From: an uncultured Oscillospiraceae bacterium | GTDB lineage: Bacteria; Bacillota; Clostridia; Oscillospirales; Oscillospiraceae | Length of the DNA stretch: 41,207 nucleotides | Direction of reading: 5' to 3' | Assembly: GCA_951801655.1 (NCBI GenBank) | Contig: CATONV010000015.1 | Location: 1 to 41,207, forward strand | Shown here: piece by piece, positions 3,239 through 33,101 of the stretch | Layout: each line of letters begins with the position of its first letter | How positions within the stretch are numbered: position 1 is the first letter of the stretch | Program-made: the position numbers and the translations under genes | Notes under the pieces: generated by a model | Seen by the model: only the letters and a program-made list of their open reading frames with translations | Told to the model about the DNA's origin: nothing | Database searches by the model: none

Positions 3239-3504
3239 TGGTTGTTTCCTCCTTAGATTCATACGAAGTGATTTTCTTGTCCCTCGCTCCGTACGGTGAG
3301 AGTCCCTTCATTTCCACGCTTTCGTGCGTATCATTCCAGACCGCGAAAAAACCGGCGCAAGACAGGCCGGTTTTCTCCGGGCCGGGCGATATACGCCGCG
3401 GCACGAAGCTCTCAGCCGCCCGATCAAACGGACATACTCCGCGGAAGTTACCTCATTTTATGAGCAATCTCCCGCATCATCGCAGACTGCGCCCTTTCAG
3501 ACGC
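3239..3504 (-). promoter_or_regulatory. S10 operon leader RNA
   Basis: About 265 nt separate the predicted transcription start (near 3504) from the rpsJ ATG. The leader includes an intrinsic-terminator-like hairpin at 3346-3374 followed by a U-run, roughly midway, so much of the transcription could stop before rpsJ. It has no convincing open reading frame. This arrangement implies attenuation; the ligand (an r-protein or other factor) is unknown. Confidence 0.55.
3346..3374 (-). terminator. Intrinsic terminator/attenuator in the S10 leader
   Basis: Read on the minus strand, ACCGGC and GCCGGT arms enclose a 9-nt loop and are followed at once by six T residues. It lies inside the rpsJ leader, downstream of the operon promoter and upstream of the gene, so it is best read as an attenuator rather than an end-of-operon terminator. 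Confidence 0.75.
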
Positions 3505-3539: not shown

Positions 3540-3621
3540 GGGTTTTTTGAAAAAAATTTTGGCGGATTTCCCTGGATTCTCCCCGTGTCCTTTGTCCATT
3601 TTGCGCTGCTCTGCCGCTTAC

Positions 3622-3715
3622 GGCAACGGGCCCCGGCTTTTAGCCGGGGCCCGTTGCCTGTGTGTGTTGTAAAAGGAGAGGGAGAAATGGGAGATACATG
3701 TTGTAGCCTTGCTAC
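3622..3715 (-). ncRNA. Predicted small RNA, copy A
   Basis: A predicted ~94-nt RNA. From the -10 box at 3722-3727 transcription should start near 3715 at GTAG. The RNA opens with a 5-bp hairpin (GTAGC/GCTAC, loop AAG), continues with a C/U-rich, probably unpaired stretch that contains ATGTATCTCC, TTTCTCCC and CTCTCCTTTT, then ACAACACACACAGG, and ends in a perfect 17-bp stem with a 3-nt loop (3622-3638/3642-3658). It aligns along its whole length and through its promoter with copy B at 12704-12795. Differences between copies are indels of 1-2 nt, totalling 7 in the C/U-rich part, so a conserved peptide is unlikely. The U-tract after the stem is poor. Role inferred: antisense control of translation initiation. 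Confidence 0.75.
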
Positions 3716-3721
3716 AGTGTT

Positions 3722-3775
3722 ATCATAAAATACAAATGCGGCGATTTCGTGACATCTCCGTGAACTTTTTGTAAA
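3722..3775 (-). promoter_or_regulatory. Activator-type promoter of small RNA A with 11-bp direct repeats
   Basis: Read on the minus strand: TTTAC (3771-3775), TTCAC (3760-3764) and GTCAC (3749-3753), each exactly 11 bp apart, then 21 bp to the -10 TATGAT (3722-3727). No -35 hexamer is present at the right distance, which suggests dependence on an OmpR/PhoB-family activator. PhoB, WalR and CiaR boxes all use direct repeats with about one helical turn spacing; the exact family cannot be told. The first repeat abuts the stop codon of the upstream gene. Confidence 0.72.
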
Positions 3776-3781
3776 TTCCCC

Positions 3782-4027
3782 CTATGACTCTGTGCCCAGG
3801 GTCTGAATCAGCAGATTGCGCAGAGAGATGGCGCTCTGCCGGTTCATCACAATGGAGGCCACAGTATCAGCGGCGGGGGTAGCCACGTTTTCGATTCCCC
3901 CTTGGGAATTGACGGTAATGGCGTTCTCCATATATTTATAGGAAATATCCAGGGTGACCTCTAGCAGGTTCCCCTCCTTGTCGGACACCTTGCGCAGTCC
4001 AAAAGCGTTGGCGTATTCCGGTCTCAT
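3782..4027 (-). CDS. Small protein of unknown function
   Basis: An 81-aa acidic-to-neutral protein that I do not recognise. It starts MRPEYANAFGLRKVSDKEG, has no signal peptide, transmembrane segment or cysteine, and its middle (VTLDISYKYMENAITVNSQGG) reads like beta strands followed by a helical C-terminus. The ATG has a good AAAGGAG site 9 nt upstream. It lies 19 nt after the NUDIX gene and is the last gene of the minus-strand block that begins with the response regulator at 8082. Its stop codon is six bases from the repeat box driving small RNA A. Confidence 0.7.
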   Translation of the reverse strand: MRPEYANAFGLRKVSDKEGNLLEVTLDISYKYMENAITVNSQGGIENVATPAADTVASIVMNRQSAISLRNLLIQTLGTES

Positions 4028-4046
4028 GGTTCCAGTCTCCTTTCCA

Positions 4047-4514
4047 TTATTTTATCCGCGTTCCATTCAGCACCGCTTCCGCCAGCCGCTCCCCCTGGTA
4101 GCACACCTTCAGAGAGAAAAAAGGGACGTCTTTCCAAATCAGATCCAGAAAGATGGCGTCTCCCTCCCAGTGTGGGATCTCCAGCAGCTTCTCCCGGGGG
4201 AGCCACTCCAGCACTCCCTCGTCGCACTCTTTCAGTGTCCCGGTAAAGCTGTCGGCGGTAAACAGGTGCATGTATTCGGTGGGCCAGCGGTCGGAGACAA
4301 AGGTGACAATCCCTCGATACCGGTAATCAGTAAGAGTCAGGCCTGTCTCCTCCTCCGCCTCCCGGAGAAGGCAATCCTCGGGGCTCTCCTTGTCCAGAAA
4401 TTTCCCTCCGACGCCGATCCACTTGTCCCTGTTCAGGTCGTTTTCCTTTTTGATCCGGTGGAGCATCAGATATTCCTCTCCCCGGCGAATATAGCAAAGT
4501 GTTGTGTTTATCAT
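4047..4514 (-). CDS. NUDIX hydrolase (MutT-like)
   Basis: A 155-aa NUDIX-fold hydrolase, expected to cleave a nucleoside diphosphate linked to another group, for instance 8-oxo-dGTP. The NUDIX box is complete: GGKFLDKESPEDCLLREAEE followed by ETGL, matching G-x5-E-x7-REUXEEXGU, so the Mg-binding glutamates are intact. The C-terminal part, with LPREKLLEIPHWEGD, resembles MutT-type 8-oxo-dGTP diphosphatases. Its ATG overlaps the HtrA stop by four bases (ATGA), so it is translationally coupled to a stress protease. The substrate is not determinable from sequence. Confidence 0.9.
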   Translation of the reverse strand: MINTTLCYIRRGEEYLMLHRIKKENDLNRDKWIGVGGKFLDKESPEDCLLREAEEETGLTLTDYRYRGIVTFVSDRWPTEYMHLFTADSFTGTLKECDEGVLEWLPREKLLEIPHWEGDAIFLDLIWKDVPFFSLKVCYQGERLAEAVLNGTRIK

Positions 4515-5740
4515 GGTTCAACCAGCTCCACATCTACGGTAAATCTCTCTCCGTTCCGCAGGCAGGTGAGGGTCACCGTGTCTCCCGCGCCCAGCTCCAG
4601 CTTCAGCCGGGTCAGATCCTGAATCCCGGTGACAGGCTGGCCGTCGGCCTCTAAAATAATATCGCCGGGCCGCAGGCCCTTGGTCCAGGCGTCACTTTCC
4701 TTCTCCACCTCCACCAGCTCCAGGCCGCCGACTTCGGGCACCATGGTGCTGACCTTGAAGCCGAAAATTCCCGCTCTGACCTCCTCCCCGGCAATCAGCC
4801 GGTCAGCCACGTACTTCACCCGCCGGGAGGGAATGGCAAAGCCCAGGCTCTCGGCGGAGCCGTCCTCGGTCACAATTTTAATGGTGTTGATCCCGATGAC
4901 TTGGCCGTACTGGTTGAGCAGGGGGCCTCCGGAGTTGCCGAAGTTGATGGCGGCGCTGGTCTGAATCAGCACCATGGTAATGCCGTCCACCTCAACCGAC
5001 CGGTCCAGAGCGGAGACGATGCCATCGGTAAAGGTGGCCCGGTAGCCCAGAGAGTCCCCCAGGGCGGCCACCGGCTCGCCGATGCGCAGGCTGTTGGAGT
5101 CGCCGAAGCGGGCCGGGGTAAGCCCTTCCGCCGCCACCTTCAGCACGGCGATATCCTCTACCGCGTCAAAGCCCACCAGGCTTGCCGGCAGGATGCGGTT
5201 GCTGGGGAGGGTCACCCGCACCTCCTCCGCCCCGGCTACCACGTGGGCATTGGTAATGATATACCCGTCCTCTGTCAGCACCACGCCGCTGCCTGAGCTC
5301 CCGTGCCCCCCGGCTGACAGGGAGTCAATGGACACCGCCGAGGGCAGGGCCTGGTCGTATATCTGGGTATAGGTCAGCGCGCTTCCCTGGGCGGGAAGGA
5401 GGGACACCGTCACCCCCGTCCCCGTCTCCACTCTGGGTATGGCAGGAGGCGTGTCGTCCAGCACCGTGTCCTGAACCTCTCCCCGATAGGGCGCCTCCCA
5501 GTTTCGAATGGCCGCCTTACCGGAAAAGTACTGCTCCAGAAGGGCCGTCGCCAGGCAGATCACACAGATCAGGGTCACCAACCCCATAAACCAGGGCCAC
5601 CTGTTCCTCCGCCTGGGGCGAAGCACCGGACACTCAGCGGCCCGGCCCGTCGGGATCCGGACAGCCGGCGGCGGCGGGAACGCCTGGCCAGGCCTCTCCC
5701 AGCAGCCGCCCTGCCACAGGTCGTCGTTTCGGTTGTCCAT
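4511..5740 (-). CDS. HtrA/DegP-like membrane-anchored serine protease with PDZ domain
   Basis: A 409-aa trypsin-like protease of extracytoplasmic quality control. Order: basic, proline-rich cytoplasmic N-terminus (1-48), one transmembrane segment (about 50-68), linker, protease domain with the triad His166 (TNAHVV), Asp196 (VEDIAVL) and Ser270 (NFGNSGGP), and a C-terminal PDZ domain (about 315-405, with RPGDIILEADG). The ATG at 5738-5740 is chosen for the GGGAGG site 8 nt upstream; longer in-frame starts would run into a GC-rich repeat. It lies downstream of a two-component system on the same strand, like htrA genes controlled by CssRS or CiaRH, and overlaps the NUDIX gene. Confidence 0.95.
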   Translation of the reverse strand: MDNRNDDLWQGGCWERPGQAFPPPPAVRIPTGRAAECPVLRPRRRNRWPWFMGLVTLICVICLATALLEQYFSGKAAIRNWEAPYRGEVQDTVLDDTPPAIPRVETGTGVTVSLLPAQGSALTYTQIYDQALPSAVSIDSLSAGGHGSSGSGVVLTEDGYIITNAHVVAGAEEVRVTLPSNRILPASLVGFDAVEDIAVLKVAAEGLTPARFGDSNSLRIGEPVAALGDSLGYRATFTDGIVSALDRSVEVDGITMVLIQTSAAINFGNSGGPLLNQYGQVIGINTIKIVTEDGSAESLGFAIPSRRVKYVADRLIAGEEVRAGIFGFKVSTMVPEVGGLELVEVEKESDAWTKGLRPGDIILEADGQPVTGIQDLTRLKLELGAGDTVTLTCLRNGERFTVDVELVEP

Positions 5741-5768
5741 AGCAGCACCTCCCATCGAAAATAGACGT

Positions 5769-5831
5769 GTAGGGGGCGGCCTCCGCGCCGCCCCGTAGGG
5801 GGACACGGGGCGGGACAAAGTCCGCCCCTAC
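5769..5831. repeat. GC-rich palindromic intergenic repeat (GTAGGGGC type), R1
   Basis: Between the kinase and htrA lies a composite of imperfect palindromes beginning and ending with GTAGGGG/CCCCTAC. One part pairs GGGGGCGGC with GCCGCCCC, another pairs GGGGCGGGA with TCCGCCCC. Related pieces occur at 7312-7341, 25160-25183 and 33191-33214, all intergenic, so this is a dispersed repeat family rather than a terminator. Confidence 0.6.
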
Positions 5832-5836
5832 TGTTT

Positions 5837-7285
5837 TCACGCCAGAGTCAAGGTAAAGTGGAACTGGGTTACCCCATCCTCGCTGGTCACGTTGATGCTC
5901 TCCTTCAGGTTTCCCAAAATAGTCTTGACTATATACAGGCCCAGTCCCACGCCCTCCCTGTCCATGGAGCGGGAGTAATCCGCCTTGTGGAACCTCTCAA
6001 AGAGAAGAGGCAGCTCTTCCGGCGGGATAGTGGCCCCCAGGTTTCGGATCACCACCTGGGCTTTTCCGTCCTTTTTGGTAATCTGAACGGTGATGGCGGT
6101 GCCCGGCGCGGCGAATTTGGCCGCGTTGTCCAGCAGGTTGTAGCACACCTGTGTAATGGAGTCCGGATCGCCCCACACCATCAGCTTGTCCTCGGGCATC
6201 TGCACGTCCACGTCCAGCTGCCGGTCCGTAATTTTCGTCTCCAGGCTGATCAGCACCCTGGACATCACCTCGGTGAGGTCAAAGGTTTCCTGGGCAGTCA
6301 CGGTACTCTCCGCCAGAGCGTTGAGGCGGCTGAGGTCCAGCATCCGCCGCACCAGGCGGCTAAGGCGCCGGGTCTCCGACACCACAATCTCCAGCGACTC
6401 TCTCTCCCTCTCCGGAGGAATGGTGCCGTCCAGAATCCCCTCGGCAAAGCCGGCAATGGTGGTCATGGGAGTTTTCAGCTCATGGGAGACATTTGCGATA
6501 AATTCCGAGCGTTGGCTCTCCACCTTCTCCAGGGAGTTGGCCATGGAGTTAAATGCCTCGGCCAGGGCACTCACCTCGTCGCACCGGTCCTCATAGCCGG
6601 TGACCCGGATGTCAAACTCCCCCTGTCCAAACTTTCGGGCCGCCTCGGCCATCTCATTGAGGGGGCGGGTCTGGTAGGCGGAGGTGAGGGTACTGGCAAT
6701 CACAGAGATCAGAAATACCACCACGGCGGAGAAAAAGAAAATGGTAGCGGTGGACGACCACATCTCGCTCAGGTTAGAGGCGCTGGCCGCCACCAGAACC
6801 ATCCCCTGGGTAACGGTCACCGGGCCGATCTGGTTGGTCACAGGCAGGGCGGAGGTGTAGCGTCTCTCGGAGTAGCGTCCGCCCAGACTGGTCATGCCGC
6901 TGTAAAATCCCACATTCTCGTCCATCACCTGGGCGACAATATCCTCTGGGAGCTGTTCATCCTCCTGGGTGTAGAACTGTCTGCCGTCGGTGGAGAACAG
7001 GATTTTCCCGCTGCTGTCGGCCACAATAATGTGAGAGTTGGAGATCATGGCGATGGAAGCCATGTAGCTGCTGTAGAACTCGTCCTGCACCTCCAGGGTG
7101 AGGTAGCGCCGGTAGTAGGTGGAGGTAAAGCTGGCAATATAGCCCGCGTTTCGAATCACCGAGTCCCGTGTCTCCCCAATGATATACCGGTAGGACAACA
7201 GCATAAAGGCCCCGGCCAGCAGCGTGAAGGAGAGCAGCATAATACTCACCATCATGGTCAGCTGGCGGCGGTAGAGGGAACGCAT
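5837..7285 (-). CDS. Membrane sensor histidine kinase
   Basis: A 482-aa sensor kinase. Order: TM1 (about 10-32), extracytoplasmic sensor domain (33-178), TM2 (about 180-203), HAMP (204-257), HisKA with phospho-acceptor His268 in NVSHELKTPMT, and a HATPase with N-box NLLDNAAKF (383-391) and G2 box GVGLGL (445-450). There is no PAS domain. The G1 region reads NLGAT (415-419) where canonical kinases have DxGxG; a similar Asn variant occurs in some clostridial kinases. The ATG has an AGGAGGTG site. It follows the PhoB-type regulator by 104 nt, so the two should be co-transcribed and form a pair. The stimulus is unknown; the htrA neighbour suggests envelope stress. Confidence 0.93.
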   Translation of the reverse strand: MRSLYRRQLTMMVSIMLLSFTLLAGAFMLLSYRYIIGETRDSVIRNAGYIASFTSTYYRRYLTLEVQDEFYSSYMASIAMISNSHIIVADSSGKILFSTDGRQFYTQEDEQLPEDIVAQVMDENVGFYSGMTSLGGRYSERRYTSALPVTNQIGPVTVTQGMVLVAASASNLSEMWSSTATIFFFSAVVVFLISVIASTLTSAYQTRPLNEMAEAARKFGQGEFDIRVTGYEDRCDEVSALAEAFNSMANSLEKVESQRSEFIANVSHELKTPMTTIAGFAEGILDGTIPPERERESLEIVVSETRRLSRLVRRMLDLSRLNALAESTVTAQETFDLTEVMSRVLISLETKITDRQLDVDVQMPEDKLMVWGDPDSITQVCYNLLDNAAKFAAPGTAITVQITKKDGKAQVVIRNLGATIPPEELPLLFERFHKADYSRSMDREGVGLGLYIVKTILGNLKESINVTSEDGVTQFHFTLTLA

Positions 7286-7311
7286 TTGGCTTCACCTCCT
7301 GAGAAAATACT

Positions 7312-7341
7312 TGTAGGGGCCGACGACCTCGGCGGCCCGCC
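7312..7341. repeat. GTAGGGGC-type intergenic repeat, R2
   Basis: A short GC-rich imperfect palindrome (TGTAGGGGCCGACG ... CGGCGGCCC) in the gap between response regulator and kinase. It shares its first nine bases with R1 and R3. No U-tract follows on either strand. Confidence 0.45.
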
Positions 7342-7389
7342 TGTTAAAGCTGCGGTGTTGGCTGAAACGTCTCGCCCTGGGCGCAGATC

Positions 7390-8082
7390 TTACCCCGCCG
7401 TCCCCAACTCAAATTTATACCCCACGCCCCACACAGTCTTCAGCCGCCACTGGTCGCTGACGCCCTCCAGCTTCTCCCGCAGACGCTTGATGTGGACGTC
7501 CACCGTGCGGCTGTCGCCGAAGTAGTCAAAGCCCCATACCTCGTCCAGCAGCTGGTTTCGGGTAAACACCCGGTTGGGGGAGGAGGCCAGGTGGAACAGC
7601 AGCTCCAGCTCCTTGGGGGGCGTGTCCACCCGCTGGCCGTCCACCAGCAGCTCGTAGGAATCCAGGTTGATCACCAGCTTGTCAAAGGACAGCTTTTTTT
7701 CTCCCGTCTCCTCCTCCACGCCGCTGCGGCGCAGCACGGCGTGGATGCGAGCCAGTACCTCCTTCATCTCAAAGGGCTTTACGATGTAGTCGTCCGCCCC
7801 CTGTTCCAGGCCGGACACCTTGTCCTCTGTCTCTCCCTTGGCGGTCAGCATGATTACCGGGGTCTTGTCCCCCTCCCGGATCTTTTTCAGCACGGACCAG
7901 CCGTCCATAATGGGCAGCATAATGTCCAGCAGCACCAGATCGGGCTGGAAGGAGCGGAACAGCTCCACTCCCTTTCCGCCGTCCTTGGCCACATGGGTCT
8001 CGAAGCCCTCTTTCTCCAAGTAGAGGTGGAGCAGCTCTGCGATGTTGGCGTCATCCTCGACGATCAGGACTTTTTTCGGCAT
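7390..8082 (-). CDS. OmpR/PhoB-family response regulator
   Basis: A 230-aa transcription factor with an N-terminal receiver (phospho-acceptor Asp53 in LLDIMLP, Thr80, Lys102 in YIVKPF, acidic pair near residues 10-11) and a C-terminal winged helix of the PhoB type (SRTVDVHIKRLREKLE, then WGVGYKF). Start: ATG with GAGGTG 7 nt upstream. It heads the minus-strand block RR-kinase-HtrA-NUDIX-unknown. Its promoter carries TTTAC-N6-TTCAC repeats 20 bp before TATAAT, matching the promoters of small RNAs A and B, so autoregulation is likely. PhoP, WalR, CssR and CiaR all belong to this family; residues visible here do not decide among them. Confidence 0.95.
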   Translation of the reverse strand: MPKKVLIVEDDANIAELLHLYLEKEGFETHVAKDGGKGVELFRSFQPDLVLLDIMLPIMDGWSVLKKIREGDKTPVIMLTAKGETEDKVSGLEQGADDYIVKPFEMKEVLARIHAVLRRSGVEEETGEKKLSFDKLVINLDSYELLVDGQRVDTPPKELELLFHLASSPNRVFTRNQLLDEVWGFDYFGDSRTVDVHIKRLREKLEGVSDQWRLKTVWGVGYKFELGTAG

Positions 8083-8122
8083 AAAACGGCACCTCGCTTT
8101 TATATAAACGTATATGTTAGAA

Positions 8123-8159
8123 GGGTGCGACGACTCGGCGCGCCGGGGTCGTCGCGCCC
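8123..8159 (-). promoter_or_regulatory. Long hairpin in the response-regulator 5' UTR
   Basis: A 12-bp stem (GGGTGCGACGAC with GTCGTCGCGCCC, one G-T wobble) encloses a 13-nt loop that is itself a CGGCGCGCCG palindrome. It lies in the ~100-nt leader between the predicted start (near 8185) and the gene. No T-run follows, so it may stabilise the message or be a GC-repeat insertion. Confidence 0.5.
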
Positions 8160-8191
8160 TTCACGGCGTCTCTCTATATCGTGTCGTCTCT

Positions 8192-8233
8192 ATTATAGCG
8201 CAAAAAAGGAGGCTTGGGTGAATAATCTGTAAA
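8192..8233 (-). promoter_or_regulatory. Autoregulated promoter of the response-regulator operon
   Basis: On the minus strand TTTAC (8229-8233) and TTCAC (8218-8222) lie exactly 11 bp apart; 20 bp after the second comes the -10 TATAAT (8192-8197). There is no -35 hexamer. The layout matches the two small-RNA promoters (21 bp there), which points to one activator, probably the regulator encoded just downstream. The first repeat abuts the CDF stop codon. Confidence 0.7.
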
Positions 8234-9409
8234 TTAGGGCGTTTTTCTTCCCTCCACATAGGAGTGATCCACCTGGATCACCGGAAAATACCGGTCGGAC
8301 AGCTGCTTGATGCGCTGAGTCAGCTCTCCCCGCACCTGCGCGTCGGACAGGCAGAAACCATAGGGGGCCACCACGTCAAACAGAAGGTTGGTGTGGATGG
8401 GGCCAGCGGTAATACGGAAGTCGTGAATGGTGAGACAGGGGTCCAGGTCGCGGGCCAGCTGCGCCACCTGTTGGCGCAGGGCCTCGGTGCGCCCGTCCCG
8501 CACCACCGGGTCCATATGGATGGAGGTCTCGATGTGGTGTTTGGCCTTCAGCTCTCTCTCAATATGGTCGATCACGTCGTGGATCTCCAGCAGGTCGCCA
8601 TCGGCGGGCACTTCGGCGTGGAGGGACATCATGGCCCGACCGGGACCATAGTCGTGGTAGACCAAGTCATGGATGCCCAGGATGTAGTCGTGACCCAAAA
8701 CGATGCGGTCGATATCGGCGGCCAGCTCGGGGTCCATGGGCCGGCCCAACAGGGGGTCGATGGTCTCCTTGGCGGCCCCCCAGCCGGTCCGCAGAATAAA
8801 CAGGGCCACAGCCAGCCCCAGCCAGCCGTCCAGGGGCAGGCGCAGGAAATGTCCAACGGTCAGTCCCAGCAGCAAAGTGCCTGTGGCGGCGCAGTCAGAC
8901 AGAGAGTCGGCGGCAGTGGCGGCCAGGGCCGGGGACTGGATGGCTTTGGACAGCCCCCGATTAAAGAAGAACATCCACAGCTTCACCCCGATGGAGGCGG
9001 CCAGAATACCCGCCGACACAACGGAAAAATCCACCGATTCCGGACGGAGGATTTTTTCCGCTGACGATTTGGCCAGCTCCAGTCCTACCAGCAGAATCAG
9101 CATGGATACTGCCAGTCCGGCCAGATACTCCATCCGGCCGTGGCCAAAGGGGTGCTCCTCATCCGCCTCCCGTCCGGCCAGACGAAAGCCCACCAGGGTC
9201 ACCACCGAGGAGGCCGCGTCAGACAGATTGTTAAAGGCGTCGGCAGTGACGGCGATGGAGGCCGTGAGAAGGCCAGCCGCCAGCTTGCTCAGGAAGAGAA
9301 GCAGATTCAAAGCAATGCCGATCCCGCCGGACCGTACACCGCACCGCCTGCGGGTGTCGGGGTCCTGAGGGTCCCCGCCCCGAAGACAAAAACGGATAAA
9401 AAAGTCCAC
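8234..9409 (-). CDS. Cation diffusion facilitator (CDF) metal exporter, Mn-type motifs
   Basis: A 391-aa CDF transporter that would export divalent metal from the cytoplasm in exchange for protons. Six transmembrane helices are followed by a long cytoplasmic domain with two ferredoxin-like metal-binding modules. The intramembrane site reads N60-x3-D64 (DAFNNLSD) in TM2 and D168-x3-D172 (DSLSD) in TM5, the pattern associated with Mn-exporting CDFs rather than the H/D pattern of Zn exporters. A GTG start at 9407-9409 is chosen because AGGTGG lies 9 nt upstream and homologues start at this point; an ATG 14 codons earlier has no such site. A DtxR/MntR-type regulator lies at 38417. Confidence 0.9.
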   Translation of the reverse strand: MDFFIRFCLRGGDPQDPDTRRRCGVRSGGIGIALNLLLFLSKLAAGLLTASIAVTADAFNNLSDAASSVVTLVGFRLAGREADEEHPFGHGRMEYLAGLAVSMLILLVGLELAKSSAEKILRPESVDFSVVSAGILAASIGVKLWMFFFNRGLSKAIQSPALAATAADSLSDCAATGTLLLGLTVGHFLRLPLDGWLGLAVALFILRTGWGAAKETIDPLLGRPMDPELAADIDRIVLGHDYILGIHDLVYHDYGPGRAMMSLHAEVPADGDLLEIHDVIDHIERELKAKHHIETSIHMDPVVRDGRTEALRQQVAQLARDLDPCLTIHDFRITAGPIHTNLLFDVVAPYGFCLSDAQVRGELTQRIKQLSDRYFPVIQVDHSYVEGRKTP

Positions 9410-9838
9410 GAAAAGAACCCACCTCACAGTAGAAAAATTGAAAGGCCACATAATATTTCTGGTCTTATAATCTTTTTATTTTCTCATATATCTTCTTTTC
9501 TGTCAAGAAAAGATTCCGATAAGAATTTAAAAAAAGAAATGTTCTATGCAAAAAACAAGAACCGTGTACAGTTTAAAATCAGTTGTCCTTTTATGACGGA
9601 CAAATTGTTTTTTGGCGCCCCCTTGTGCAAAAAGACGAATCAATCATAGCTCACGAAACTCCATCTTGTCAATGTGCTTGCTTTTTGGATAAAGCTATGC
9701 TACAATAGCCAAACTGCGTCCTCATTCTCGGGGAGAGCGTGCAAATAGCGCGGAAGGGAGGAGAGAGAACCGCTTTAAACTGTACGCCGCAGAAACACAC
9801 GAGGACATACATTTTGAAAGCTTGAAGGAGAGAAATCA
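9410..9838. promoter_or_regulatory. AT-rich divergent intergenic region with two promoters
   Basis: This 429-bp region is much more AT-rich than its surroundings and holds no gene I can support. For the CDF gene a minus-strand TTGACA (9501-9506) is followed 17 bp later by GAAAAT (9478-9483). For the AbgT transporter a plus-strand TTGCTT (9678-9683) is followed 17 bp later by TACAAT (9701-9706), leaving a ~125-nt leader. No riboswitch was recognised in that leader. Confidence 0.65.
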
Positions 9839-11431
9839 ATGGCAAAAAACAAAGACATCCAGAAGGTCAGCATGTATGACCGCTGGCTCAACGGCATCGA
9901 GGCCGTGGGCAACAAGCTGCCCCACCCCGTGGCTCTGTTCGGAATTTTCTGTCTGTTCATCATCGTCATCTCCGCCATCTGCGCCGCTCTGGGCGTATCC
10001 GCCACCGGCAAGCTGATTGCCAACAATGAGCTGGCAGAGACCACCGTCACCGCCGTCAGCCTGCTGACCAAGGACGGCCTGGCCTACATTTTCTCCCACG
10101 CGGTGAGCAACTTCACCTCCTACGCCCCTCTGGGCATGGTGCTGGTTGCCATGCTGGGCGTGGGCGTGGCCGAGCAGTCCGGCCTGATCAACGCCCTGCT
10201 GAAGCAGACCGTGAAGGCCACCCCCAAGTCCCTGATCACCCCCGTGGTGGTCTTCCTGGGCGTTATGTCCAACATCGCCTCTGACGCGGGCTACGTGGTG
10301 CTGATCCCCCTGGGCGCCATGGTCTTCCGGGCCTACGGCCGTCACCCCATGGCCGGCCTGGCGGCCGCCTTCGCCGGCGTGTCCGGCGGCTTCTCCGCCA
10401 ACCTGCTGGTGGGCACCACCGACCCCCTGCTGGCCGGCATCACCCAGACCGCCGTGTCCATCATCGACCCCAACTACCATGTTCAGGTGATGGGCAACTA
10501 CTGGTTTATGTTCGTCTCCACTTTCCTCATCACCATTGTGGGCACCTTTGTCACCGACAAAATCGTGGAGCCCCGGCTGGAGGCCTTTAGCGGTGAGCTG
10601 CTGGGCGAGGAGGACGCCTCCCTGACCACCATCACCGGCGCCGAGCGCAAGGGCCTGCGCCGGGCCGGCATCACCGCCCTGATCTTTGTGATTATCGTTG
10701 TGGCCTGCTGCATCCCCGCCAACTCCTTCTTCCGGAATGTGAACGGCGCTCTGCTGGGCCGTCCCGCCTCTCCCCTGATCGAGGGCATCGTGGTCCTCAT
10801 CGCCCTGCTGTTCTTCCTGCCCGCCGTGGCCTTTGGCAAGACTGTGGGCACCTTTAAGAACCACCGCGAGGTGTGCAACGCCATGGCCAAGTCCATGTCC
10901 ACCATGGGCTCCTTCCTGGCCCTTGCCTTTGTCTCCTCTCAGTTCATCCAGTACTTCAACTACACCAAGCTGGGCACCATCATCGCTCTGAACGGCGCCA
11001 ACTTCCTGGACTCCATCGACATCGGCCTCATCCCGCTGATGGTCATCTTCGTGCTGTTCTCCGCGTTCATGAACCTGTTCATGGGCTCCGCCTCCGCCAA
11101 GTGGAACATCCTGGCCCCGGTGTTTGTCCCCATGTTCATGCTGCTGGGCTACAGCCCCGAGCTGTCCCAGCTGGCCTACCGCATCGGCGACTCCTGCACC
11201 AATGTCATCACCCCGCTGATGACCTACTTCGCCGTCATCGTGGTCTTTGCCCAGCGCTATGACAAGAAGGCCGGCATCGGCACCATCACCGCCACTATGC
11301 TGCCCTACTCCATCGCCTTCCTGTTCTTCTGGACCGTTATGCTCATCATCTGGCTGGCCATCAGCCAGGCCACCGGCGGCTTCCCGCCCATTGGTATCGA
11401 CACCGGCCTGTTCTATACTCTTGGCGGTTAA
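9839..11431 (+). CDS. AbgT-family transporter
   Basis: A 530-aa polytopic membrane protein of the AbgT family (p-aminobenzoyl-glutamate uptake in E. coli; some members instead export sulfonamides). Family marks include the N-terminal WLNGIEAVGNKLPHP, the N-S-S-like SNIASDAGYVVLIPLGA stretch and the MNLFMGSASAKWNILAPVFVP hairpin, with about 11-13 hydrophobic segments across the protein. The ATG has GAAGGAG upstream. It is followed by a terminator and then an M20 peptidase; in enterobacteria abgT is likewise next to M20 peptidases that split p-aminobenzoyl-glutamate. The real substrate here is uncertain. Confidence 0.88.
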   Translation: MAKNKDIQKVSMYDRWLNGIEAVGNKLPHPVALFGIFCLFIIVISAICAALGVSATGKLIANNELAETTVTAVSLLTKDGLAYIFSHAVSNFTSYAPLGMVLVAMLGVGVAEQSGLINALLKQTVKATPKSLITPVVVFLGVMSNIASDAGYVVLIPLGAMVFRAYGRHPMAGLAAAFAGVSGGFSANLLVGTTDPLLAGITQTAVSIIDPNYHVQVMGNYWFMFVSTFLITIVGTFVTDKIVEPRLEAFSGELLGEEDASLTTITGAERKGLRRAGITALIFVIIVVACCIPANSFFRNVNGALLGRPASPLIEGIVVLIALLFFLPAVAFGKTVGTFKNHREVCNAMAKSMSTMGSFLALAFVSSQFIQYFNYTKLGTIIALNGANFLDSIDIGLIPLMVIFVLFSAFMNLFMGSASAKWNILAPVFVPMFMLLGYSPELSQLAYRIGDSCTNVITPLMTYFAVIVVFAQRYDKKAGIGTITATMLPYSIAFLFFWTVMLIIWLAISQATGGFPPIGIDTGLFYTLGG

Positions 11432-11445
11432 CCATTTCGCGCCCC

Positions 11446-11472
11446 AGGGCGGCCCTCTGGGCCGCCCTTTTT
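11446..11472 (+). terminator. Intrinsic terminator after the AbgT gene
   Basis: AGGGCGGCC and GGCCGCCCT arms around a 5-nt loop are followed by TTTTT. It lies between the transporter and the M20 peptidase, so the second gene is probably read by partial readthrough or its own weak promoter. Confidence 0.8.
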
Positions 11473-11497
11473 AAATGATGATAAGGAGGTCATTCCC

Positions 11498-12604
11498 ATG
11501 ATTAACAAAGAACGCCTGCTCAGCACCTTTTTAGACTATGTCCAGATCGACAGCGAGAGTACCCACGAGGGGGCCATCGCCGCCCGGGTGGCGGAGGACC
11601 TGAAGGCCATCGGCTGTCAGATCTCAGTAGACGACAGCGCCGCCAAAACGGGCAGTGAGACAGGCAATCTGTATGCTGTCCTCCCCGGCAGCATGGAAGA
11701 GGAACCCATCCTCTTCGCCGCCCACATGGACACGGTGGTCCCCGGCGTAGGGGTAAAGCCTGTGATTGAGAACGGCGTCATCCGCAGCAGCGGCGACACC
11801 GTCCTGGGCGGAGACGACAAATCCGGCATCGCCGCCATTGTGGAGGCCCTGCGCACCATCGTGGAAAACAACCTGCCCCACCCCACCATCGAGGCCCTGT
11901 TCACCGTCTGTGAGGAGGTGGGCCTGCGGGGCTCCCGCAATATGGACTACAGCCGCATCACCGCCAAAAAGGCCGCCGTGCTGGATAGCAGCGGCGACGC
12001 CGGCAAGATCATCGTCGCCGCTCCGGGGCAGTACAAGCTGAACGCCGCCGTCATCGGCCGCCGGGCCCACGCCGGCGTGGCCCCCGAGGAGGGCATCAGC
12101 GCCATCCAAGTCCTCTGCGAGGCCGTTTCCAACATGAAGCTGCTTCGTATTGACGAGGAGACCACCGCCAACATCGGGACTATCTCCGCCCAGTACGCCA
12201 CCAACATTGTCCCTGAGAGAGCGGAGCTGGTGGGCGAGTGCCGCAGCCGCCGGGACGACAAGCTGGAGGCCCAGGGCAGACACATGATGGACTGTCTCCA
12301 GGCCGCCTGCGACAAATTTGGGGCCACTCTTGAGGGCGGCCTGACCAAGGCCTACAGCGCCTACTCCTATACGGAGGACGACCCCTTTGTTCAGGAACTG
12401 ATGGCCGCCTGCCGCAAGGCAGGTCTGGAGCCCACTCTGGCCGCCAGCGGCGGCGGCAGCGACGCCAACAATATGAGTACCCACGGCCTGAAAGCACTGG
12501 TACTGGGCACCGGCATGGCCAAGGTCCATACCGTTCAGGAGGAAATCACCGTTAAAAATCTGGAGGACACCGCCGCCCTAGTGCTGGCCATCGCCGCCAA
12601 ATAA
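11498..12604 (+). CDS. M20 family metallopeptidase (PepT-like)
   Basis: A 368-aa zinc aminopeptidase-type enzyme related to tripeptidase T. Metal-site motifs are visible: HMDTV (about residue 76), GGDDKSG, the catalytic EEVG, and the dimerisation domain begins near GQYKLNAAVIGRRAHAG. GGGSDANN near the C-terminus is the usual last loop of the family. The ATG has AAGGAGG 8 nt upstream. Paired with the AbgT transporter 66 bp away, it could hydrolyse an imported acyl-glutamate or small peptide. PepT-like (PepT-2) assignment is favoured over carboxypeptidase G2 or AbgA/B, but substrate specificity is inferred. Confidence 0.88.
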   Translation: MINKERLLSTFLDYVQIDSESTHEGAIAARVAEDLKAIGCQISVDDSAAKTGSETGNLYAVLPGSMEEEPILFAAHMDTVVPGVGVKPVIENGVIRSSGDTVLGGDDKSGIAAIVEALRTIVENNLPHPTIEALFTVCEEVGLRGSRNMDYSRITAKKAAVLDSSGDAGKIIVAAPGQYKLNAAVIGRRAHAGVAPEEGISAIQVLCEAVSNMKLLRIDEETTANIGTISAQYATNIVPERAELVGECRSRRDDKLEAQGRHMMDCLQAACDKFGATLEGGLTKAYSAYSYTEDDPFVQELMAACRKAGLEPTLAASGGGSDANNMSTHGLKALVLGTGMAKVHTVQEEITVKNLEDTAALVLAIAAK

Positions 12605-12643
12605 GACGGACAAATGAGAGGATAGGAAAATCGTACGCAAATG

Positions 12644-12697
12644 TTCACAAAAAGTTCATCGCCGCGTCATGATTTAGCCGCATTCATATTTTATGAT
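12644..12697 (+). promoter_or_regulatory. Activator-type promoter of small RNA B with 11-bp direct repeats
   Basis: TTCAC (12644-12648), TTCAT (12655-12659) and GTCAT (12666-12670) lie exactly 11 bp apart, then 21 bp to the -10 TATGAT (12692-12697). No -35 hexamer is seen. It shares ACAAAAAGTTCA, GCCGCATT and TATTTTATGAT with the promoter of small RNA A at identical spacing, so the two were duplicated as a unit and keep the same control. Confidence 0.72.
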
Positions 12698-12703
12698 GAT
12701 ACC

Positions 12704-12795
12704 GTAGTCAAGTGAATGAAATGTATCTCCTTTCTCTCTCCTTTACAACACACAGGCAAAACGTCCCGGTTAATCGCCGGGGCGTTTTGCCGTTT
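12704..12795 (+). ncRNA. Predicted small RNA, copy B
   Basis: A predicted ~92-nt paralogue of small RNA A. It should start at GTAG near 12704, carries the shared ATGTATCTCC followed by C/U-rich CTCTCCTTT and ACAACACACAGG, and ends in a 15-bp stem (12755-12769/12777-12791, one T-G wobble, 7-nt loop) and a short T-run. The stem differs in sequence from that of copy A while its strength is kept, as expected for a functional terminator. A 5' hairpin like that of copy A is weak or absent. It lies between the M20 peptidase and a convergent LCP gene, with a second terminator at 12804. Confidence 0.75.
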
Positions 12796-12803
12796 ATAGA
12801 GAG

Positions 12804-17221: not shown

Positions 17222-17575
17222 TCAGCCGCCCTGAAAGGCGCGAATAGCGTCCGCAGTCTGCTGGTAGTCCGCCTTCACCTTGGACAGCAGCTGTGCGGCC
17301 AGGTCATAGTCCTTGGTGCGCAGCGCCTCCGTAATGGCGTGGCTGGATTGATACAGCTTGGTAAAGCTGAGATTCTGGGATACGCCCTTCAAGGTGTGGG
17401 CGGCCCGGAACGCATCGTCGTAGTTCTCCGCCTTCAGGGAATCCTCCAACTGCTGAAAGGATTGATCAGACAAAAACTTCCCCACAAAACGCTGTACCAG
17501 CGCGTCGCTGTACAGTCGGCCCAGCACCTCCTGGTAATCGCCCTCCAAAGAGGCGTAACACTCCTGAATGGTCAT
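17222..17575 (-). CDS. Hpt (histidine phosphotransfer) domain protein
   Basis: A 117-aa four-helix-bundle phosphotransfer protein. The phosphorylatable residue is His60 in FRAAHTLKGVSQNL, the standard Hpt motif. It starts MTIQECYASLEGDY, has no membrane segment and covers one domain only. The start overlaps the stop of the HD-GYP response regulator by four bases (ATGA). With the hybrid kinase (19115-21670) and the REC-HD-GYP protein (17572-19110) it makes a complete phosphorelay in one operon. Confidence 0.92.
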   Translation of the reverse strand: MTIQECYASLEGDYQEVLGRLYSDALVQRFVGKFLSDQSFQQLEDSLKAENYDDAFRAAHTLKGVSQNLSFTKLYQSSHAITEALRTKDYDLAAQLLSKVKADYQQTADAIRAFQGG

Positions 17576-19110
17576 TGCGCATCCTCCTTTTTCTCGCGTT
17601 CCTCCACCTTGCCGATCGCGCCGGTATACTGCGGCGGGTCCTCAGAGGACCACATGGCCCGGCCGGTGATATGGACAGGCCGTTTGCTGCCGTCCAAAAT
17701 TACCTCGCAGTCAAACTCCACCTCTGGCGCTTCGGGCGTGGTGCCCTGAAGCAGCTGGGCCAGTTCCGCCAGCAGGTCCAGGTCCATCAGGGACTTCACC
17801 TGCTCGTTGTGATAGGGGTCCACCGTTGTCTCCTCCAGCCCGGTGCGCTGTGCTCCCAGCGGGGAGAGGGTGAGCATGGGGGGCGTAGTGGTGTATTCAA
17901 ACAGAATCTGCTGCGACACGGCAGTAAAGAAGCGGTGAATGGTCCTTTCCTGCTCCAGCACCCGCAGGGTGCGGTCTGCGGCGGAAAGCTCCTCATACTC
18001 CATCAGCTCCGCCGCCGTGTTCTCCATAGCCCGCTGGTCGCCCTTGGTGATGGTGTCCACCGCCATCTCCCGCTGAATCACGTCGCTGCTCTCCACCAGG
18101 CACTCCAGCAGCAGCGGCTGGAAAGCCCCGCACTCCCCGTTGAGAATCATGGATAGGGCCTTTTCATGGGAGTGGGCCGGCTTATAGACCCGCACGCTGG
18201 TCAGTGCGTCATACACGTCGGCCAGAGAAACCACCTGGGCGGAGATGGGGATATCCTCCCCTACCAGCTTATCCGGATAGCCCCGGCCGTCGTAGCGCTC
18301 GTGGTGCCAGCGGCAGATTTCATAGGCGTATTTCACCAGCGGTTCGTCCTGGAAGGGCACTCCCTTCATCATATCCGCGCCCATCTGGGAGTGGCCTTTC
18401 ATAATGGCGAACTCCTCGTCGGTAAATCTGCCCGGCTTGTTGAGTATCTCGCTGGGAATGCAGATCTTGCCCACGTCGTGCAGGGTGGAGGCGTTGCTGA
18501 TCAGGTTGATGGTCTCCCGATCCAGCTGATATTTGTTCGTTTTGCGCATCAGGCTTTTCAGCAGAATCTCCGTCATAGTCTGGATATGGAGAACATGCAG
18601 GCCGCTCTCCTCGTTCCGGAACTCCACGATGTGGCTGAGGATGGAGATCATCAGGTTGTTGATTTTCTCCTTCTGATAGATCTGCTCATTCACCATGGCC
18701 GCCAGACGGCGCTGTTTGGCGTAGAGCATGATCGTGTTGATCACCCGTCGGCGGACCACCATCATATCAAAGGGACGGCTTATGTAGTCGGTGACGCCCA
18801 TGTCGTAGGCCCGTTCAATAAAGGCGTGGGTACTCTCCGCCGAAATCATGATCACAGGTACGCTGTCGATCCAGTTGTACTGGTTCATGGCGGACAGTAC
18901 GCCGAAGCCGTCCAGGTTGGGCATTACAATATCCAGAAGGACCAGAGAAATTTCCTGTTCCTTCTGCTGGAGAACGGCCACTGCCTGCAGGCCGTCCTCC
19001 GCCTCAATAATATCGTAGGACTCCTCAAGCATGGAGCGCAGGATGGAACGATTCATCTCCGAGTCGTCGGCTACCAAAATAGTATAACGTTGCTCTCTCT
19101 TTTGAGCCAT
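17572..19110 (-). CDS. Response regulator with HD-GYP domain (c-di-GMP phosphodiesterase-like)
   Basis: A 512-aa protein. The receiver domain (1-125) has Asp60 in LLDIVMPNLDG, but the conserved Lys is Arg112 (YISRPFD). An HD-GYP domain follows (about 150-330): His211-Asp212 in TLHDVGK, HH at 269-270 and GYP at 277-279, matching active c-di-GMP phosphodiesterases. The last ~180 residues are a less clear region ending in a sensor-like beta-rich segment (CEVILDGSKRPVHITGRA). The ATG at 19108-19110 is used, with GGAAGGTGA upstream; a GTG four codons earlier lies too close to that site. It overlaps the Hpt gene and follows the hybrid kinase by four bases. Confidence 0.92.
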   Translation of the reverse strand: MAQKREQRYTILVADDSEMNRSILRSMLEESYDIIEAEDGLQAVAVLQQKEQEISLVLLDIVMPNLDGFGVLSAMNQYNWIDSVPVIMISAESTHAFIERAYDMGVTDYISRPFDMMVVRRRVINTIMLYAKQRRLAAMVNEQIYQKEKINNLMISILSHIVEFRNEESGLHVLHIQTMTEILLKSLMRKTNKYQLDRETINLISNASTLHDVGKICIPSEILNKPGRFTDEEFAIMKGHSQMGADMMKGVPFQDEPLVKYAYEICRWHHERYDGRGYPDKLVGEDIPISAQVVSLADVYDALTSVRVYKPAHSHEKALSMILNGECGAFQPLLLECLVESSDVIQREMAVDTITKGDQRAMENTAAELMEYEELSAADRTLRVLEQERTIHRFFTAVSQQILFEYTTTPPMLTLSPLGAQRTGLEETTVDPYHNEQVKSLMDLDLLAELAQLLQGTTPEAPEVEFDCEVILDGSKRPVHITGRAMWSSEDPPQYTGAIGKVEEREKKEDAQ

Positions 19111-19114
19111 GGGT

Positions 19115-21670
19115 TCACTCACCTTCCGTCGGTCTTATATTCCGGGCGCGGTCGCGCCGCAGCATTAGTTTGGTCAATGTGATACACAGCTGTTCGATGT
19201 TGATGGGCTTGGCCAGATGGGCGTCCATGCCCGCCTGGGCGGTGCGGGTAATGTCCTCTGCAAAGGCGTTGGCCGTCAGCGCCACAATGGGCACTGTCCT
19301 GGCATCGGGCCGGTCCAGGGCCCGAATGGCCTTGGTGGACTCGCAGCCGTCCATTTCGGGCATCTGCATATCCATCAAAACCGCGTCGAAGAAACCGGGC
19401 TTGGAACTTTGGAAGGCCTCCAGGGCCTTGCGCCCGTCCTTTGCCGGCGTCACCTTGGCGCCCCGCATCTGGAGAAGCTCGGTGGCAATCTCCATATTCA
19501 GGAAGTTGTCCTCCGCAAGAAGGATGTTGCGTCCCTCCAGCTGAGCCGACTCCCCGGTCTCCTCCTCCACAACCGGCTGGATCTGCTCGCCCACGTCAAA
19601 GGGCAGGGTAACCGAGAAGGTGGTGCCCTTGCCCAGGGCGCTGGTCACGGCAATCTGACCGCCCATGCGGGTAACCAGATTTTTTACAATAGGCATTCCC
19701 AGTCCGGTACCCATTACCTCCTTCGCTCCGAAGCGGACCTCCCTCTCGTAGGGGTCGAAGAGCTTGGGGAGAAACTCCTCTGACATGCCGGTGCCACTGT
19801 CCTCCACCACAAAGAGGTAGTTATTTCGCTTTCCCTCGTCCATCTGACGCAGAGAAACAGAGATGCGATCCCCCTCTCTGGTAAACTTTATGGCGTTGGA
19901 CACCAGGTTGTTGATGACCTGCCCCAACCGGGCGGGATCGCCCTTGATCAGATTGTCCTTGATGTCGATGGACAGCTCAAACGTCTTGTTGCGGGCCTGA
20001 GCCTGGGCCTGGAAGGGCGAGGTCCATGTCTCCATGGACGAGCGCAGGTCAAAGGTCTTGATCTCCATAGACACGTTGCCCTGCTCCAGCCGGGAGATCT
20101 CCAAAATATCATTGATCAAGGCCAGCAGCTGCTGGCTGGCGGCGCCTATCTTGTTCAGGTAGTCCCGGTTTTTCTCCGGTCCGCAGTCAGACTGGAGGGC
20201 CAGACTCGTCATACCAATAATGATATTCAGCGGGGTGCGCATGTCGTGGCTCATCACAGAGAAGAACTGCTGCTGGGACTTCTCGCTCTGTTCTGCGGCG
20301 GACAGGGCCCCCTTCAGCAGTCTCACCTGCCGCTGCTGCTCCTCCTTCTCGTTCTCCACATCCCGGAAGCAGATTACCACCTCGCCCGGGATCCTATCCG
20401 GGTCGGTGAGCATGCGCACACTGATCCAGCGTTCCTCATCTTCAAACTTCCGCAAAAACTCGCCGCCGAAATCCCGGGTTCCCTGCTCCACCAGCTGTCT
20501 GATGTTCTCCAGGGCAAAATTCCGGACAAAGTCCTCCGAGGTCCACTCGTCCAGGGCGGTGGCAATCACCTTCAGCAGCTCGCTGTACTCGCCGGTCATG
20601 CCTTCCATCCTCTCCCGCACGTAGGGGGAGGGCTTTGTCATCTCAAAGATACCCGTTACAATATTCACGCGGTAGAAGGCGTAGTAGATATCCCCCATCA
20701 CCTGCATCGTCTCGGCGGTGCGTTTGGCCGTTTTGCTCAGCTTCCGGTCCCGCAGCCACATGCCCATGGCGATGCCCAAAAACAGCACCAAGGCTACGCC
20801 GTAGCACACCAGGATATTCTGCACCCCCTGGAGCAGCGTCTCATAGGGGACTGTAAGAATACACAGCCAATTATTTTCAGCGTGCTGGTAGTATAGCCCT
20901 CGGGTCAGCTTCTGCATGCCTATAATCTCGTTGTCTTTGCCGTCCAGCTCCCCTTGGTTGACCCGGTCAAACAGGTCTTTGGTATAAGCCTGAAGTTCCT
21001 CCTCCGTAGACTCAAAGGGAATGTTGTAGTACAGCAGACTGCCACGGTTGTCCAGCACATAGTACGCGCCGCCCGCCGGCAGCTCCTGAACGGTGTGGTC
21101 GGCCCGGAAGTGCTTCAGAGGCACATCAAAGGCAATAGCATTGTCGCTCCCGCTGGCGGAGACGGCCACGGTGACCACCATCTCGCCGCCATAAGCGTCG
21201 CTGGCGTAGGCGTCGGTATAGATCACCCTGCCCTCCGCCGCCATGGCCTGCTGATACCACGACTGGCTCTTGTAATCGTAGTCCCAGTCCCGGACCCCTC
21301 CGGTAGAGATGACCTGTCCGTCCAGCACGGCGTAGATATCCAGGTCGCTGGTGCTGAGCAGGGCGGTACTCTTTCCCAAATAGTCCACCAGCCACTCTTC
21401 AAACTCCTCCGAGCCCACTCCCTGCTTGTCCATATCCTCCAGATAGAACATGGCCATTGTCAGGATGCGGTCATACTCGCTGAGCTGACTGTTCTCATCG
21501 TTGGCATAACTGGTGACCAGATTTTTCCCCATGGACCTGGCGCTGTCCAGCAGCAGCCCCCGGCTCATAATCATGCCAGCCGCAGCCACCACCACAAACA
21601 GCGCCAAAATCCAAAGGATCCGCCAGCTGCTCCACTGGTTGGGCGAGCCCTTTACCTTGTTATGTCGCAT
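19115..21670 (-). CDS. Hybrid sensor histidine kinase/response regulator
   Basis: An 851-aa membrane kinase. Order: TM1 (about 18-35), large extracytoplasmic Cache-like sensor domain (about 40-275, with DWDYDYKSQSWYQQA typical of dCache sensors), TM2 (about 283-305), a cytoplasmic PAS-like region (about 325-440), HisKA with His475 in SVMSHDMRTPLN, HATPase with VVEDSGTGMS and GTGLGM, then a receiver domain with phospho-acceptor Asp near 767 (LMDMQMPEMDG). ATG at 21668-21670 with AAGGAG eight bases upstream. Promoter TTTACA-N17-TATACT at 21757-21785. It heads a three-gene operon whose outputs are an HD-GYP protein and an Hpt protein. Confidence 0.93.
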   Translation of the reverse strand: MRHNKVKGSPNQWSSWRILWILALFVVVAAAGMIMSRGLLLDSARSMGKNLVTSYANDENSQLSEYDRILTMAMFYLEDMDKQGVGSEEFEEWLVDYLGKSTALLSTSDLDIYAVLDGQVISTGGVRDWDYDYKSQSWYQQAMAAEGRVIYTDAYASDAYGGEMVVTVAVSASGSDNAIAFDVPLKHFRADHTVQELPAGGAYYVLDNRGSLLYYNIPFESTEEELQAYTKDLFDRVNQGELDGKDNEIIGMQKLTRGLYYQHAENNWLCILTVPYETLLQGVQNILVCYGVALVLFLGIAMGMWLRDRKLSKTAKRTAETMQVMGDIYYAFYRVNIVTGIFEMTKPSPYVRERMEGMTGEYSELLKVIATALDEWTSEDFVRNFALENIRQLVEQGTRDFGGEFLRKFEDEERWISVRMLTDPDRIPGEVVICFRDVENEKEEQQRQVRLLKGALSAAEQSEKSQQQFFSVMSHDMRTPLNIIIGMTSLALQSDCGPEKNRDYLNKIGAASQQLLALINDILEISRLEQGNVSMEIKTFDLRSSMETWTSPFQAQAQARNKTFELSIDIKDNLIKGDPARLGQVINNLVSNAIKFTREGDRISVSLRQMDEGKRNNYLFVVEDSGTGMSEEFLPKLFDPYEREVRFGAKEVMGTGLGMPIVKNLVTRMGGQIAVTSALGKGTTFSVTLPFDVGEQIQPVVEEETGESAQLEGRNILLAEDNFLNMEIATELLQMRGAKVTPAKDGRKALEAFQSSKPGFFDAVLMDMQMPEMDGCESTKAIRALDRPDARTVPIVALTANAFAEDITRTAQAGMDAHLAKPINIEQLCITLTKLMLRRDRARNIRPTEGE

Positions 21671-21756
21671 ATTGTTCACTCCTTGCCTGGTCAGGCCCCG
21701 GCTGGCAAATAAAGCCGTTCTTTCAGCTTAAATGGGCAGACAGTCATACAGGATGT

Positions 21757-33085: not shown

Positions 33086-33101
33086 GTGAACAAATTGTAA
33101 A
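33086..33101 (-). promoter_or_regulatory. TTTAC-N6-TTCAC repeat pair upstream of murA
   Basis: TTTAC (33097-33101) and TTCAC (33086-33090) are exactly 11 bp apart on the minus strand, just upstream of the murA -35. Sequence and spacing equal those of the response-regulator promoter, but here a -35 box is present and the distance to the -10 is longer. A candidate operator only. Confidence 0.45.

Follow-up and report, generated by a model that had tools for sequence, protein, structure and literature searches.

The two small RNA genes

The stretch analysed here (the window) comprises 41,207 nucleotides from an uncultured Oscillospiraceae bacterium (GenBank assembly GCA_951801655.1, contig CATONV010000015.1, positions 1 to 41,207 of the forward strand). 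It carries two sibling genes for small RNAs (sRNAs), named A and B, one on either side of a gene cluster coding for a sensor histidine kinase (HK) and a response regulator (RR). The sRNA family to which they belong is real and widely conserved, has no match in Rfam 15 and has a well-supported candidate regulator. The parts of the two loci are the following, where PWM is the position weight matrix of the operator and SD the Shine-Dalgarno sequence.

3747..3775, minus strand: operator of sRNA A, TTTACA-N5-TTCAC-N6-GTCAC(GA), 11-bp period, PWM score 42.9
3722..3727, minus strand: -10 element TATGAT of sRNA A, 48 bp from the operator start
3620..3715, minus strand: sRNA A (class I), predicted, about 96 nt
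3703..3715, minus strand: 5' stem-loop GUAGC-AAG-GCUAC of sRNA A, from the fold
3672..3689, minus strand: unpaired segment CAUUUCUCCCUCUCCUUU of sRNA A, exact complement of an idealised SD plus AUG, AAAGGAGAGGGAGAAAUG
3622..3658, minus strand: 3' hairpin of sRNA A, 17 bp, presumed terminator, no sense-strand U-tract
12644..12672, plus strand: operator of sRNA B, TTCACA-N5-TTCAT-N6-GTCAT(GA), PWM score 39.3
12692..12697, plus strand: -10 element TATGAT of sRNA B
12704..12793, plus strand: sRNA B (class II), predicted, about 90 nt
12726..12744, plus strand: C/U-rich anti-SD segment of sRNA B
12755..12791, plus strand: 3' hairpin of sRNA B, 16 bp, presumed terminator, unflagged by a simple terminator scan

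A BLAST search with copy B against its own genome returned copy A as a paralog with 75% identity over promoter and transcript (E 8e-19; minus strand 3775-3620 for A, plus strand 12640-12800 for B), and no third copy, the matches after A having E values above 1. The preliminary description of this DNA had placed two copies about 9 kb apart at these positions and had listed identical promoter and transcript blocks, all of which are real: the operator, TATGAT, TATCTCC, CTCTCCTTT and ACAACACACA. From 5' to 3', each copy is composed of half-sites spaced by 11 bp, the -10 element TATGAT, a start at G, an unpaired C/U-rich body with ACAACACACA(CA) at its end, and a hairpin of 16-17 bp. The predicted start, a G at the 7th base after the -10 element, falls at 3715 in A and 12704 in B, in agreement with the starts given earlier, while the earlier length of 92-94 nt was right as an approximate size and not as an exact one. 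Compared with shuffled sequences, the folding was strong for both RNAs (z of -8.1 for A and -5.8 for B, with 0 of 200 shuffles equally good); the hairpins had been described as strong and of equal strength, and only the first part held, the minimum free energies being -46.9 and -35.3 kcal/mol for A and B. The 5' stem-loop GUAGC..GCUAC is present in the fold of copy A and absent from that of copy B.

In relatives, the copies are often arranged in tandem, about 170-230 bp apart, and because this arrangement is so frequent the 9-kb spacing found here may reflect a rearranged pair. Three tandem copies with differing bodies, about 170-195 bp apart, were observed in loci L056, L108 and L129.

Conservation of promoter, hairpin and body

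A covariance model built from five copies, transcript only (model R1), matched at E<1e-6 in 55 of 64 genomes of the same genus, with a total of 108 copies: one copy in six of these genomes, two in 45 and three in four. At E<=0.01 the number of genomes rose to 60 of 64. The genomes without a match at the stricter threshold were seven small ones (G159-G165), G167 and G190. A search of a named genome collection with an exact 19-base transcript pattern gave 63 stretches, 59 of which hold a model match of at least 39 bits; since that exact block fetched these loci, their identity within it is partly selected for. The named carriers are mostly Lawsonibacter, Flavonifractor, Pseudoflavonifractor, Colidextribacter, Flintibacter and unnamed Firmicutes or Oscillospiraceae. 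Four loci were rejected as chance occurrences: L052, which has no operator, and L063, L082 and L091, which match the pattern and not the model.

Promoter and transcript were then compared over 94 distinct copies, which are not 94 independent cases because some belong to pairs of almost identical species, such as L064 and L131. This count excludes duplicate records of one genome (L114, L126, L127, L130), matches truncated at the edge of a locus (L074, L089 at 1-61, L094, L055 at 7959), L066 at 2440, where the promoter space is missing, and antisense or hairpin-only matches. By motif, 53 copies belong to class I (29 of them with the 5' stem), 28 to class II and 13, including L052, to neither.

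The operator TTyACA-N5-TTCAy-N6-GTCAy was found in 93 of the 94 copies, at a fixed distance to the -10 element, L052 being the exception. As five copies (A, B, two in G039 and one in G128) had been retrieved with a query containing the promoter, the unbiased figure is that of the copies retrieved by transcript only, 88 of 89. The consensus reads TTtACAaAAAgTTCAy-N6-GTCAyGAttTnGCC, and the -10 element begins 48 bp from the operator start, its first two positions being T and A in 99% of cases each. The half-sites recur every 11 bp with the promoter-proximal one lying over the -35 position. A simple scan for sigma-70 promoters flagged none that includes the -10 element of A or B, which agrees with a missing -35. 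In the window, the three-half-site PWM matched only the operators of A and B. In six genomes of the genus, the places with 0-1 mismatch to the three-half-site pattern were sRNA promoters, save one in G154; at 3 mismatches chance matches arise, as they do in a reversed control. The place in G154 (G154:C1:714486; L220, operator at 8512, minus strand) is a near-perfect three-half-site operator with no recognisable sRNA downstream. In L067, the copy at 4907-5008 (minus strand) has, beyond its normal operator on the upstream side, an extra operator-like sequence, TTCACAAAAAGTTA.

The 3' hairpin was examined over 92 distinct aligned sequences. Two-sided changes were observed at 17 of 17 pairs, with 97.7% of the cells paired, and the covariation score was 0.603 compared to 0.249 in shuffles and at most 0.145 in slid versions; these counts lean toward the model's structure, to which the alignment was fitted. 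The GC-rich hairpin is present and covarying without a clear U-tract, the number of T in the 10 bases around the model end being mostly 1-4, and termination of the RNA at this hairpin is presumed. The covariance search in relatives that the preliminary description had proposed thus recovered an RNA with its promoter and hairpin and not a bare repeat, and its activator-type promoter is supported by the 11-bp spacing, the proximal half-site over the -35 and the constant spacing to the -10. The one to three similar copies per genome would also fit a mobile element or dispersed DNA repeat devoid of RNA function; given the fixed promoter geometry, the compensatory changes along the whole stem, the conserved synteny and the lack of a third copy in this genome, we consider the probability of this reading practically negligible.

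The unpaired body of the RNA was also analysed. A segment exactly complementary to AAAGGAGAGGGAGAAATG, an SD and start codon at the proper spacing, occurs in 55 of 93 copies, including A, where the segment CAUUUCUCCCUCUCCUUU is unpaired in the fold. The distance between the C/U block and CACACA is spread over the three frames (35/30/25, for the 90 of 93 copies that could be measured), and a closed open reading frame (ORF) of at least 10 codons is absent in 77 of 93 copies, so the earlier preference for a noncoding RNA over a peptide was well founded. That either strand encodes a small peptide, the antisense one having AAAGGAGAGGGAGAAATG as a look-alike of an SD plus ATG, is very unlikely: the perfect antisense string in those 55 copies and the closed sense ORF in 16 of 93 copies could be read in this way, whereas the antisense ORFs from that ATG range from 4 to 33 codons with no common length, the string is absent in 38 copies, the sense-strand spacing ignores the frame, and operator and -10 element serve the sense strand.

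In the taxonomic family, a second model, R2, matched at E<=1e-5 in 101 of 400 genomes and 34 of 106 genera, many of the weak matches being possibly plain terminators. As the R2 E-values are too optimistic for hairpin-only matches, operator and RNA together were used as the criterion. Among the R2 loci returned from outside the genus, 23 of 29 carry the operator (score of at least 14 of 18). A degenerate operator pattern was found in 78 of 400 family genomes and 33 of 106 genera, with 0 in the reversed control, and 67 of its 88 places have an R2 match 30-130 bp downstream on the same strand; these pairs span 58 genomes, 48 of them outside the genus. For eight of the 21 leftover operator places loci were available, and inspection by eye showed a further diverged, hairpin-bearing C/U-rich RNA after four of them and no clear one after the other four. 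The sRNA bodies vary by genus, and C/U-rich stretches, for example CUCUC or CCUCCC, persist in those that were read. A spread beyond the family was considered and rejected: R2 matched in 11 genomes of the order's other families, the operator was present in 0 of 10 loci, and these matches look like plain terminators.

The adjacent two-component system

The genes next to the sRNAs and the box in the RR promoter are listed below.

7390..8082, minus strand: OmpR/PhoB-type RR, proposed activator
8218..8233, minus strand: operator TTTACA-N5-TTCAC in the RR gene's own promoter, with TATAAT 36 bp from the operator start
5837..7285, minus strand: HAMP-HisKA sensor HK
4511..5818, minus strand: HtrA/Do-family serine protease with PDZ
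4047..4514, minus strand: NUDIX hydrolase, linked gene
3782..4027, minus strand: 81-aa protein without Pfam or NCBIfam match, last gene before sRNA A
8234..9451, minus strand: CDF cation efflux transporter, upstream neighbour of the RR
3416-3488, minus strand: S10-Clostridia ribosomal leader (RF03136) preceding rpsJ, the next element downstream of sRNA A

Upstream of sRNA B come genes for an AbgT transporter and a PepT-like peptidase, both on the plus strand. The 81-aa protein is found in the cluster of many relatives, with 73-98% identity.

Three points go beyond the preliminary description: the adjacent RR as likely activator, the same box in the RR promoter, and the tandem copies in many relatives. 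In 16 of 20 fetched genus loci (19 genomes), CDF, RR, HK and HtrA accompany the sRNAs on one stretch, and the cluster also lies beside the sRNA in both fetched loci of genus g87. Five other genera contribute at least 8 genomes with an operator match within 8 kb of the RR (G087, G219 and G273 of g87, G027 of g28, G047 of g47, G104 of g104, G106 and G282 of g106); in G027, operator and sRNA are on the strand opposite to the RR, about 0.2 kb away from its start. In the two g106 genomes (G106:C158:11144, plus strand; G282:C249:7286, minus strand), the operator is about 2 kb downstream of the RR gene and has no R2 match, and it is perhaps a promoter inside the RR-HK-HtrA cluster.

The promoter of the RR gene has TTyACA-N5-TTCAC in 19 of 19 loci, with the -10 element 36-38 bp from the box start. 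We then analysed 29 other genera, represented by 30 genomes, of which 22 have the operator pattern and eight lack it; two of these eight (G121 and G066) have the operator by a looser score. The RR identity in this sample is 71-92%. The RR promoter box (score of at least 14) was found in 22 of the 30, compared to 1 of 600 in a shuffle control, and these are divided into 18 of the 22 genomes with the operator pattern and four of the eight without. Relative to the -10 element, most RR promoters have their half-sites at -36/-25 and the sRNA promoters at -48/-37/-26, which is the same register plus one half-site. At E<=1e-85, the RR itself was found in 375 of the 400 genomes of the family, with a single copy in almost every case, and CDF adjoins it in 14 of 30 other-genus loci. 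Because the RR is adjacent to the sRNAs and its own promoter carries the same box, we propose it as the likely controller of sRNAs A and B, on the grounds of sequence.

That a different PhoB-type regulator recognising a similar direct repeat, for instance the phosphate regulator, controls the sRNAs appears distinctly unlikely. The Pho-type boxes found at pstS in relatives, in 4 of 9 loci and in four of the five best, are similar, with TTTACA-N5-TTAAC or TTTAC and the same 11-bp step. The second half-site is TTCA in 93 of 93 sRNA promoters and 19 of 19 RR promoters, whereas the pstS boxes have A or T in place of the C. In addition, three of eight genomes searched (G000, G195 and G210, G000 being only 89% complete) have no PstS match and keep the operator, no PstS match was found in the window's genome, and the box is linked to the adjacent RR both by position and by the RR gene's own promoter. 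The Pho-type boxes upstream of pstS were seen in four of the five loci L303-L307.

A box TTTACA-N5-TTCAC with a downstream TATAAT is also present at 33086-33101 (minus strand), before murA; among the orthologues of murA no more than 5 of 12 showed the pattern, and murA is not counted as a member of the regulon.

Proposed mechanism and comparison with known systems

We regard as quite probable a mechanism in which a two-component system responding to envelope or metal stress activates sibling sRNAs that would block translation through a segment mirroring SD and AUG. The kinase would sense envelope, secretion or metal stress and phosphorylate the RR. Dimers of the RR would then bind the 11-bp-spaced TTyACA, TTCAy and GTCAy half-sites, the promoter-proximal one of which covers the missing -35, and would activate each sRNA gene and the RR gene, a step for which the sequence gives strong support. 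An RNA of about 90-100 nt with a strong hairpin at its end would be made, which is likewise supported, and its unpaired C/U-rich segment may pair with the start sites of a set of mRNAs whose translation would be blocked. With two to three copies that differ in their bodies (classes I and II), the dose would rise and the target set would be wider. The sibling sRNAs would act in trans and be the conserved output, and probably the main one, of an autoregulated RR-HK system that adjoins HtrA and a CDF transporter, and the part of the mechanism past promoter and RNA is likely.

Several observations weigh against this mechanism or parts of it. The simple terminator scan flags no sense-strand site at the hairpin of A or B and, for A, assigns the hairpin as a terminator to the opposite strand. 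The CDF-RR-HK-HtrA cluster is not near the sRNA in 17 of the 19 loci that were retrieved from other genera. The RR promoter box is weak or absent in 8 of the 30 other-genus genomes, and two positives from the group without operator pattern (G003 and G007) have a Pho-like TTAAC second half-site. The RR is far commoner (375/400) than the detected sRNA (101/400) or operator (78/400). A separate box for HtrA was not found in 13 loci, so that HtrA, if regulated, would be so by transcription reading through from the RR promoter. The search for mRNA targets yielded none that is conserved: the exact matches to the ideal target in 10 genomes are sRNA genes only, matches with up to 3 mismatches number 111 compared to 45 in the reversed control, sRNA genes included, as expected of SD-like strings, and the 15 near-match loci examined have no gene in common. 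The duplex energies with 26 start sites of the window mainly track SD strength.

The missing conserved target would also suit RNAs that titrate an RNA-binding protein through their C/U-rich and ACAACACACA stretches instead of pairing with mRNAs, an alternative of small but appreciable probability. ACAACACACA, which is outside any hairpin, is among the best conserved blocks of the transcript, although it belonged to the pattern that fetched the named loci and its invariance there is partly due to selection. The spacing of the C/U segment as an exact SD and AUG complement in 55 of 93 copies, and bodies that differ between genera yet stay C/U-rich, fit mRNA pairing rather than titration.

The mRNA-pairing mechanism has two close parallels. 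In PMC3091779 and PMC8186281, the csRNAs (Ccn sRNAs) of the CiaRH system of Streptococcus are described as two to six siblings per genome, of 51-202 nt with many near 90, in tandem in S. sanguinis, activated by the RR at a direct repeat whose step is 11 bp (TTTAAG-N5-TTTAAG), and having an unpaired region between stem-loops complementary to SD and AUG; htrA is given there among the most strongly CiaR-regulated genes. The family described here is alike in its sibling copies of predicted 90-100 nt (108 in 55 genomes, two in 45) and in the unpaired segment complementary to SD and AUG. Unlike the csRNAs, it has the operator TTyACA-N5-TTCAy-N6-GTCAy, belongs to another clade, ends in a hairpin without clear U-tract, conserves the ACAACACACA block and has a class II without 5' stem-loop. 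The CiaR box TTTAAG-N5-TTTAAG had 0 matches in the window with up to 2 mismatches allowed. The family of A and B is not the csRNA family, since neither operator nor organism agrees and the named carriers are outside Streptococcus. A link of csRNAs to zinc resistance, as stated in PMC11478796, fits the CDF transporter beside the RR and is only suggestive.

In Listeria monocytogenes, the five copies LhrC1-5 are fully dependent on the LisRK RR, which responds to cell-envelope stress, and their C/U-rich (UCCC) motifs pair with the SD region of the target mRNA (PMC4132741). Compared by description, LhrC has its motif in two loops and a linker, and the A/B family in one unpaired stretch; UCCC is present only in the unpaired body of A and absent from that of B, unlike LhrC. 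By analogy, CiaRH/csRNA and LisRK/LhrC appear nearest in logic, with a stress kinase, an RR-dependent promoter, sibling C/U-rich sRNAs and SD pairing.

RsaE/RoxS (RF01820), a C-rich anti-SD sRNA under a two-component system, gave a sub-threshold match spanning the sense transcript of copy B (21.6 bits, E 0.15, for a gathering score of 79) and none to copy A at E<=10. No Rfam 15 family matched A or B at gathering level, the S10-Clostridia leader being the only such match in the window. Among the matches listed in the open-licence literature, no publication dealt with such sRNAs in this clade, and the main text of PMC8040213, searched by term, does not name Flavonifractor, Oscillo- or Ruminococc-.

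A broader proposal, to which we give an even chance, is that this is a regulatory module spread across the family in gut Oscillospiraceae, one that evolved independently of CiaRH/csRNA and LisRK/LhrC. A near-universal, mostly single-copy RR would have its most conserved operator at an sRNA gene and not at a protein operon; the promoter would be frozen and the body rewritten per genus with the C/U-rich anti-SD stretch always kept, so that target sets would be re-tuned under a constant stress input. The RR and its sRNAs would make a defined and testable regulator-operator-sRNA module across many gut bacterial genera, carried by named cultured strains, among them Flintibacter muris DSM 110149 and Pseudoflavonifractor phocaeensis An858. 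If the proposed control and mechanism are true, this would be a third case, after CiaRH/csRNA and LisRK/LhrC, of a Gram-positive stress kinase driving sibling anti-SD sRNAs, its HtrA link would be shared with CiaRH, and convergence versus ancient origin of such wiring would become directly testable.

The window also contains a second phosphorelay at 17222-21679 (minus strand), with an Hpt protein, an HD-domain response regulator and a hybrid histidine kinase in a row.

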